Shown one piece after another: positions 46,641-49,687 of a stretch of 64,000 bases of DNA. A program made the position numbers and the translations under genes. Under the pieces are notes generated by a model. The model had not been told where the DNA came from and did no database searches. It saw only the letters and a list, made by a program, of their open reading frames with translations. The stretch lies in the NCBI GenBank assembly GCA_017305055.1, contig JAFKMZ010000006.1, positions 1-64,000 of the forward strand, read 5' to 3'. This DNA is from Lysobacterales bacterium (lineage in GTDB: Bacteria; Pseudomonadota; Gammaproteobacteria; Xanthomonadales; Rhodanobacteraceae). The stretch's first letter is position 1; each line of letters begins with the position of its first letter.

Positions 46641-46805
46641 GCGCTTGCCGACAGGCGTGGGGGCCGGCCTGGCCCCAGGCCGCGAATCCCGCGCCCGGCA
46701 TACGTTTAGGTATGTTTCCGGCGTGGCTTTTTTTCTTGAAATCCGGCCGGCGTGGCTCCACTTCAGCTACACTGTCCGGTTCTTGCACCCTGTGGTGATC
46801 GGTTG

Positions 46806-48704
<1,899 letters not shown>

Positions 48705-48730
48705 GCGTCCATACGCTTCGGACCCTGCCC

Positions 48731-48752
48731 AACCCCCGGTCCGCGCGGGGTT
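48731..48752 (+). terminator. possible terminator after rpoD
   Basis: A six-base-pair stem AACCCC/GGGGTT with a GC-rich loop lies 27 bases after the rpoD stop and is followed by TGTTCGT. The stem is short and the T-run is poor, so this is a weak candidate. Confidence 0.4.
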
Positions 48753-48922
48753 GTTCGTACTTGCACGGCGCCCGCGCAGGACCGCTCTGGGCGATGCCCC
48801 TGCTTGATGCCCATCGCGAGGTCACCGGCAAGAGCGTCGCCCACTGGTGGGCTCCTGCCGGTGCCCACGGGCGGTGCTGCGCTGGCACGCCACCGGCAAG
48901 TCCTCTACCATGCAGAGCGTGT

Positions 48923-49258
48923 GGGCCTGTAGCTCAATGGTTAGAGCAGGGGACTCATCGAAAGGTGCCGCCGCGGCGTAATCCGCGGACGGGATCGGGA
49001 TGAATTCAGGGAAACCTCAGCGGCGCGCATGCGGCCGGTGGCAACCCTGAGCCAAGCCGCCGGTGCACCGGCGGAAGGTGCAGAGACTACCTGAGGGCTT
49101 AAAGCGCCCTTGATCACAGGCTCGAGCGTCCCGCACCCCACTTGTCCACGCGCCATGGCTGCGTCGGGCGAAGGGTGAAGAGATAGTCCGCTCCGCAGGG
49201 AAACCTCCGGTACAAGCGAATCCCTTGGTTCCAGGTTCGAGTCCTGGCGGGCCCACCA
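48923..49258 (+). tRNA. ileX: tRNA-Ile(CAU), interrupted by a group I intron
   Basis: The 5' exon (48923-48958) and 3' exon (49219-49258) join to a complete 76-base cloverleaf. The acceptor stem GGGCCTG pairs with CGGGCCC, the D arm is GCTC/GAGC, and the anticodon stem is GGGGA/TCCCT with loop CT-CAT-AA. The T arm is CCAGG/CCTGG around the TTCGAGT loop, and an encoded CCA ends at 49258. The D loop and anticodon arm match E. coli ileX/ileY closely, so the CAT anticodon is read as isoleucine-2 (lysidine-modified, decoding AUA) and not methionine. The gene is split directly after the anticodon. A TACCAT hexamer at 48906 may be its -10 box. Confidence 0.9.
48959..49218 (+). ncRNA. self-splicing group I intron (Azoarcus-like, IC3 type) in the tRNA-Ile anticodon loop
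   Basis: The 260-base insert starts after the U of the CAU anticodon and ends with the terminal G (49218) that group I introns require. P1 can form between CAT of the exon and GTG at 48965-48967, with the U-G pair at the splice site. P2 is CCGCGG-CGTAAT-CCGCGG. The core blocks match the Azoarcus tRNA-Ile ribozyme in order: TTCAGGGAAACCTCAGC, GGCAACCCTGAGCCAAGC, GGAAGGTGCAGAGACTA and GAAGAGATAGTCC, then AAACCTCCGGTACAAGCG. P7 pairs GACTA (49085-49089) with TAGTC (49184-49188). There is no homing-endonuclease gene inside. Confidence 0.9.
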
Positions 49259-49687
49259 GTTCCAGCCAGCTATGCTGCGATTGTGCCGGAAGCCATCAAG
49301 TGGCCATCTATCGCGTGGAGTAGCCGTACGCGAGGCGATAGGAAGAGGGGCGTTTCTCCGATTCGTCAGGAGTAGATGGCTAGGGCGATTCATTCCGCCG
49401 GTGCCGGTCATCGTGTGCCATCCCTACCTGCGTTTTATGGGAATGGCGCGCCGCTGCGGCTCTTCCCTTGCACCGGCGGCGCCAAATGAATCGGCTTGTT
49501 CGGGCCAGTCAGGGAGACAAAGGTAGGGTGTGGTCGATCTCGCGTGTTCTACAACTGATCCATCCGACGCAAACGCGCTCATGAGTGAAGCAAATCCGTG
49601 TTTTCCAAGGACTTTCCCGCAACAAACAATTGACATGACCTTCGATGTGGCGGCACATTGGGATGGGCCGCCTCGAGGGTAGCGAGC
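49259..49687. other. 429-base region without a gene; possible promoter at 49630-49659
   Basis: No gene or tRNA is seen. A good -35 box TTGACA (49630-49635) stands 18 bases before CACATT (49654-49659), 28 bases ahead of the sigma factor GTG start. It could be a housekeeping promoter for the FecI-like gene. The base composition is visibly less GC-rich than the rpoD side. Confidence 0.4.

Follow-up and report, generated by a model that had tools for sequence, protein, structure and literature searches.

The tRNA-Ile2(CAU) gene of a Rhodanobacter-like bacterium is interrupted, immediately after its anticodon, by a 260-nt insert carrying a complete group I intron core. We hold with high confidence that this insert is a working group I ribozyme that encodes no endonuclease, belongs to a lineage marked by a P7.1 helix and distinct from that of the Azoarcus intron, and resides in the sole tRNA-Ile2(CAU) gene detected in its genome. 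Judged from its sequence and from that of its relatives, the intron almost certainly splices itself out of the tRNA.

The split gene and the structure of its intron

The gene lies in a 64,000-nt stretch of DNA, here called the window, and starts roughly 220 nt downstream of rpoD. The original prediction of a tRNA-Ile2 gene split by 260 nt right after the anticodon proved exact in its coordinates. When positions 48959-49218 are removed and the exons joined by script, a single complete cloverleaf of 76 nt is obtained, with anticodon CAT and with all stems paired (two G.U pairs). The features are as follows.

46752-48704 (+): rpoD open frame, upstream of the split tRNA-Ile2; true start not settled
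48923-48958 (+): 5′ exon of tRNA-Ile2(CAU), 36 nt, its 3′ end (48958) being that of the anticodon CAT
48959-49218 (+): group I intron, 260 nt, first base C, last base G
48965-48967 (+): internal guide GTG, forming P1 with exon CAT, with U.G at the splice site; read from the sequence
48968-48992 (+): P2 hairpin; 9 of 9 pairs changed on both sides, 85.5% of cells paired
48996-49002 (+): P3, 5′ strand, partner 49127-49133; RF00028 match, drawn pairs and alignment
49006-49050 (+): P4 and P5; P4 is 49006-49011 with 49045-49050, P5 is 49015-49041
49051-49079 (+): P6 and P6a; drawn pairs and alignment
49085-49089 (+): P7, 5′ strand GACTA, guanosine site; sequence and alignment, invariant
49090-49120 (+): P7.1/P7.1a helix, CCTG-AGGGC...GCCCT...CAGG; no counterpart in Azoarcus-like introns
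49127-49133 (+): P3, 3′ strand; drawn pairs
49134-49177 (+): P8; drawn pairs and alignment
49184-49188 (+): P7, 3′ strand TAGTC; sequence and alignment
49193-49210 (+): P9 with GAAA loop; 6 of 6 pairs changed on both sides
49219-49258 (+): 3′ exon of tRNA-Ile2, 40 nt, AATCCC...CCA, with CCA encoded

As had been anticipated, a standard tRNA caller misses or misplaces the gene: ARAGORN finds no tRNA in the window, and on the unjoined gene it reports nothing by default and a wrong tRNA-Arg(ccg) when introns are allowed. The suggested Rfam check of 48923-49258 was borne out in part. In a search of a 1.2-kb stretch, the group I model RF00028 (Intron_gpI) matches positions 48929-49210 with an E-value of 4.8e-11, but its score of 48.6 bits falls 1.4 bits short of the curated cut-off of 50 bits, which is a threshold of the model rather than a structural feature. 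Because of this cut-off, a scan of the whole window at the gathering threshold lists nothing. Matches above the cut-off occur in 36 of 197 sampled genomes of the family. Taken by itself, the insert has an unremarkable folding energy (z of -1.28, with 25 of 200 shuffles folding equally well).

The window intron shows the conserved P3-P4-P6-P7-P8 core with its P3/P7 pseudoknot, together with a U at the 5′ splice site opposite the guide G. The P7 pairing GACTA/TAGTC and the terminal G that had been claimed are both present (49085-49089 with 49184-49188, and position 49218), and all drawn pairs of P3, P4, P7 and P7.1 form in the window sequence. The drawn structure was evaluated on a MAFFT alignment of 101 of the 108 P7.1-type introns described below (L095, L099, L128, L149, L150, L172 and L173 were left out), using 67 pairs taken from the window sequence and the Rfam alignment. 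Pairing is found in 95.1% of 6623 cells and falls to 32-46% when the 3′ partners are slid, and the observed values exceed those of all 500 shuffles, in a test that is biased in favour of the structure because this was drawn from one of the sequences tested. Among these 101 relatives, 43 of the 67 pairs show changes on both sides, the covarying helices being P2 (the two basal pairs of which are often unpaired in relatives), P5, P6a, P8, P9 and P7.1a (3 of 5 pairs); P3 and P4 covary at 3 of 6 pairs each. P7.1 proper (CCTG/CAGG) hardly varies; by eye, its outer pairs differ on both strands in L139 and L106, which are misaligned at this point. P7 is invariant and therefore uninformative on its own.

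Following the steps expected of such an intron, the precursor tRNA would be transcribed and the guide GTG would pair with the exon CAT, a guanosine bound in P7 would cut after U36, and the terminal G would then replace that guanosine in P7, allowing the exons to be joined. The joined tRNA would be modified by TilS and thereby read AUA; the genome contains one match to the TilS family, in a frame of 507 aa. Within the insert there is no listed open reading frame of 80 aa or more that could represent a homing endonuclease gene, and the two that overlap it extend beyond its limits (47801-49003 on the forward strand and 48941-49411 on the reverse strand).

Two probable intron lineages and possible phage relatives

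The intron was compared with 116 distinct introns among the matches listed, after exclusion of the window itself and of 10 of 134 rows: a spurious match (L007), longer second pairings (L082, L095, L099, L104, L149, L151, L175) and long inserts (L116, L130). All 116 end in G; their position after CAT follows from the construction of the search. Classes were assigned by length and, among the matches listed, 108 introns measure 228-334 nt, begin with C and carry GGTG at the guide, and 8 measure 203-212 nt, begin with G and carry TGTG. As read, the short introns lack the segment between P7 and P3 from which P7.1 is built. These eight (L082, L111, L132, L151, L162, L169, L175 and L177), which we take to resemble the pre-tRNA-Ile intron of Azoarcus sp. 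BH72 (group IC3), share with the window intron the host gene, the site, the CAU/GUG P1, the core and the terminal G, and differ from it in their length, first base, guide and lack of P7.1. The window intron was originally held to be some 55 bases longer than the Azoarcus one; it does exceed the short class (260 against 203-212 nt), and the precise figure depends on the length taken for the Azoarcus intron.

A tree of about 100 core positions was computed from 43 hand-picked rows (47 had been named; the phage introns L304 and L305, as well as L077 and L191, were not placed). It sets the Azoarcus-like introns and two ICE-borne tRNA-Leu introns apart from the P7.1 type with support 95/96, in a topology where strong support is confined to 5 of the 39 inner branches and long branches are flagged. 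The attribution of the insert to the Azoarcus ribozyme thus stands for the group I core and fails for the type: of the IC3 marks, the window intron shows the tRNA-Ile2 site, and it has P7.1 and groups elsewhere in the core tree.

With the window gene, blastn against phages hit records of Synechococcus and Vibrio phages and, in one further case, matched the tRNA exon only; one Azoarcus-like intron hit a single Agrobacterium phage (two records). Among plasmids the window gene had no match. The intron of Synechococcus phage S-SRM01 carries CCTGAGGGATACAGTTCCCTTAATAACAGGC after P7, close to the corresponding stretch of the window. By eye, this intron and that of Vibrio phage 11895-B1 show a CCTGAG...CTTAATAACAGG signature after P7, with P7.1 at the same place as in the window intron, and the signature is absent after P7 in the psbA intron of S-CBWM1; Rfam assigns all three to group I. 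Unlike the window intron, those seen in phages interrupt protein genes. A pattern for the P7.1 signature matches at least 120 stretches of IMG/VR contigs. From these likenesses, the lineage of the window intron looks related to phage introns and may descend from a mobile, phage-like element. The available text of PMC4498298 describes a P7.1/P7.2 extension between P7 and P3 in the T4 td intron (IA2), unlike in Azoarcus. The window intron likewise has P7.1 between P7 and P3, and we read it as IA-like in this feature only, which does not by itself decide its subgroup.

The strongest competing explanation is that the intron belongs to the Azoarcus (IC3) lineage, moved from betaproteobacteria and was merely enlarged. 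The identical insertion point and three-nucleotide guide, the similar core, the occurrence of both intron kinds in betaproteobacteria and the position of the tRNA-Leu intron L288, which lacks P7.1 and yet is placed with the P7.1 type in the core tree, all speak for such an origin. We nevertheless consider it unlikely: P7.1, GGTG versus TGTG and a first base C versus G separate 108 introns from 8, the core tree divides them (95/96, on some 100 columns with long branches flagged), and the two kinds match different phages (Synechococcus and Vibrio versus Agrobacterium). This explanation was rejected on P7.1 and the core tree, with the long branches and L288 taken into account. We therefore retain a separate P7.1 lineage for the window intron, and the same position of tRNA-Ile2 seems to have been colonised by two lineages of intron.

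Copy number, distribution and descent

The genome is a draft of 3.50 Mb in 108 contigs, 97% complete and Rhodanobacter-like, in agreement with the gammaproteobacterial host that had been proposed. It yields 41 tRNA matches, of which ARAGORN reads 40. The only CAT anticodons among these are in what we take, from their typical features, to be the initiator (L025) and elongator (L011) tRNA-Met, and no other tRNA-Ile2 or Ile(UAU) is present among the 41 matches. Neither Ile(GAU) nor Ala(UGC) was seen among them either, so the lack of another Ile2 in this draft alone proves little. The 64-kb window likewise contains no other copy of the tRNA-Ile2 exons, whole or as a broken half, with up to 6 substitutions allowed. 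The remaining match (L043, positions 74-148 of contig C101) is weak, has TGT in the anticodon place and by eye lacks a normal 5′ part; it looks like a 3′ piece of tRNA-Thr(UGU), the only Thr(UGU) seen in the genome.

We searched 197 genomes of the family with two patterns, designed to match the split and the intact gene respectively, using reversed patterns as controls. The split pattern matched in 44 genomes, the intact pattern in 115 and the controls in none. Genomes with both patterns were read individually: the intact-type match of G150 is a tRNA-Met, and the split-type match of G091 is a mutated tandem copy without intron (L292, where one tRNA-Ile2 is intact and its neighbour has C for A after the anticodon). 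The split gene is hence present in 43 of the 197 genomes, where it replaces the intact gene, and 40 match neither pattern. By the two patterns, no intact Ile2 occurs in any of the 43. A wider pattern gave 44 matches in 42 of these genomes, 43 of them of the ...GCACTCATAA elongator-Met type and one being the G150 match. Two of the 43 are single-contig assemblies, G135 and G024, with 49 and 42 tRNA matches. Within the genus itself the 17 sampled genomes divide cleanly into 8 split and 9 intact. The suspicion that this is the only tRNA-Ile2 copy is thus upheld both by the draft and by its relatives, and since it is the sole copy found, relatives show no intact copy and the pairs are conserved, splicing is very probably needed for AUA decoding. 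In six mechanical open reading frames of the window, AUA accounts for 12 of 124 Ile codons, 9 of the 12 falling in one frame.

The same data bear on the idea that the tRNA copy is dead and its insert a decayed intron unable to splice, with a working tRNA-Ile2 in the unassembled part of the genome. A draft in 108 contigs that lacks several tRNAs leaves room for such a gene, and the Rfam score of the intron is slightly below the cut-off. Against this, the drawn P3, P4, P7 and P7.1 pairs all form in the window, relatives preserve the pairs through double changes, and the 43 relatives with a split gene, the two single-contig assemblies included, show no intact Ile2, on which ground we rejected a dead intron as very improbable. 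Removal of the insert by protein enzymes, as for archaeal and eukaryotic tRNA introns, would suit its anticodon-loop position, near the canonical site of those introns, and is scarcely credible and was rejected given the full group I core with its covariation and the fact that no splicing endonuclease of that type is known from bacteria.

A group I intron at this site is widespread, and the original notion of a mainly betaproteobacterial site has to be corrected, the window intron being no stray case in its class: besides the 43 of 197 family genomes with a split gene, pattern matches occur in 24 of 369 sampled genomes of the gammaproteobacterial class. A scan of named genomes with the site pattern returned at least 119 stretches, 94 of which, among the matches listed, have both exons and an insert at the exact point. 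Among the hosts are Lysobacter, Luteimonas, Dyella, Rhodanobacter, Woeseiaceae, Variovorax and members of the Bacteroidota, for instance Hymenobacter. For some of them the assembly is a MAG, with a risk of misbinning, as with L082, labelled Akkermansia, which has a Limnohabitans-like intron.

In 25 of 31 family loci, mostly examined with 1.5 kb of flank, rpoD lies upstream of the split gene (a 26th has a weak match on the other side), and an rpoD match lies upstream of it in 53 of 92 scan loci among the matches listed; the 8-kb locus of R. fulvus (L087) has none. rpoD also lies upstream of the intact tRNA-Ile2 in 8 of 9 intron-free congeners, so that intron-bearing and intron-free forms of the same locus exist. 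In an rpoD tree of 26 rows (G189 and G173, without an rpoD match in their loci, were left out), the presence and absence of the intron needs at least four changes on strong branches; the window genome stands beside Rhodanobacter sp. L188 with a support of only 88/86. Intron and RpoD distances correlate over 75 loci (Spearman 0.41, with 0 of 999 permutations as high), and some introns are closer to each other than their hosts are. These observations agree with a partly vertical inheritance in which the intron was repeatedly lost or gained, two options that the data do not separate, and with some transfer.

Possibly mobile relatives and known tRNA introns

The kind of RNA described here is already known, and the branch to which it belongs occurs in many hosts, has an additional helix and seems akin to introns of phages. 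Vepritskiy and others reportedly described in 2002 a tRNA-Leu(UAA) intron from a gammaproteobacterium. The available texts of PMC4033280 and PMC11408192 place tRNA group I introns in cyanobacteria, alpha- and betaproteobacteria; cyanobacterial introns of tRNA-Leu(UAA) and tRNA-fMet are likewise group I and in the anticodon loop, in other tRNAs (PMC4033280). As far as its available text goes, PMC8450103 reports tRNA-Ile2 introns in Acidovorax and Burkholderia, with 36 genomes lacking fMet or Ile2 for such a reason; they share the host gene, are missed by tRNAscan-SE and occur in a host class other than that of the window. Introns in tmRNA genes, in the portion of PMC11915505 available, are similarly widespread, poor in HEGs and set in a tRNA-like gene, with some HEGs in the P7.1 region; unlike the window intron, they have a T-loop site and LAGLIDADG HEGs. 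In the open-licence literature, taken without supplements, we found no report of tRNA-Ile2 introns in gammaproteobacteria or Bacteroidota, of P7.1 in tRNA introns or of islands with intron-bearing tRNAs, which is no proof of novelty given this restriction, and the supplement of PMC8450103 may list others.

For annotation, these results mean that a seemingly essential tRNA is missed or miscalled by a standard caller, in a gene form that is common in the family. They also provide a large and diverse set of small P7.1 ribozymes for comparison with that of Azoarcus. With this site apparently occupied by two lineages, of which one has a phage-like P7.1 as well as an HNH-like open reading frame in certain Bacteroidota, the origin of tRNA introns through homing, phage-borne tRNAs or tRNA-replacing islands becomes testable.

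The HNH-like frames, of 139-152 aa, lie near the 5′ end of inserts at the same tRNA-Ile2 site and were seen only in Bacteroidota relatives, namely Hymenobacter coccineus (L116, 7045-7473), a Saprospiraceae MAG (L130, 5658-6077) and Emticicia agri (L164). We take their LHFHH...CxxC/NCHAE pattern to be HNH-like; Pfam HNH scores below its cut-off in both frames scanned. In viral contigs, 35 stretches match the split-site pattern and 17 show the core words, and 7 of 8 stretches submitted to Rfam have a group I intron at the site. Several virus-like IMG/VR contigs (among them L429, L441 and L461) carry an intron-bearing tRNA-Ile2, some together with several other tRNAs.

A second group I intron of the same genome lies in tRNA-Leu(CAA) on contig C55 (L002, positions 1501-1664 on the reverse strand; also L044 and L303), scoring 30.3 bits, below the RF00028 cut-off; its split gene is the only Leu(CAA) found in the genome. 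It starts 228 nt after the start of the 5′ half of a native-looking tRNA-Leu(CAA) that is broken in the anticodon loop, and the matching 3′ half is about 56 kb away, next to a tyrosine integrase frame. By this layout, an integrative element of about 56 kb with conjugation genes split the native-looking tRNA-Leu(CAA), with the intron-bearing tRNA-Leu at the end of the element. Genes of the VirB8, TrbI and DUF2274 types adjoin this intron-bearing gene, and the same gene kinds adjoin intron-bearing tRNA-Leu genes in two other genera (L296 in G150 and L297 in G073). A broken tRNA-Leu(UAA) half precedes the intron-bearing tRNA-Leu(UAA) in G150, and no broken tRNA-Leu half is present in the 15.5 kb examined of G073. 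This arrangement of substitute and broken gene is thus found for tRNA-Leu in the genome itself and one relative, and for tRNA-Ile2 in a few other bacteria.

In the available main text of Islander (PMC4383910), 2083 of 3919 candidate islands are anticodon-centred and some islands restore the tRNA; the word intron is absent from it. We tentatively propose, as a rather improbable reading, that anticodon-loop introns may persist and spread by hiding the integration site of the tRNA, such that elements supply an intron-bearing, att-masked substitute while breaking the native tRNA; the masking of the att site in the substitute is a hypothesis drawn from the layout of the elements. The intron-bearing tRNA-Ile2 of the window could derive from such a gene, once carried by a phage or island and since settled, though no broken half is found in the window.

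Pieces of tRNA-Ile2 were seen in 6 of 125 other loci, one of them (L157) a 3′ piece. In L082, L095, L149, L151 and L175, a tRNA-Ile2 5′ half that breaks off in the anticodon loop precedes the complete intron-bearing gene, starting 187-265 nt ahead of it, and in L099 a broken half was seen by eye. No element is seen at L095, as fliP soon follows the broken half. L082 and L175 are nearly alike, and downstream of L082 lie a recombinase-family gene and defence-like genes.
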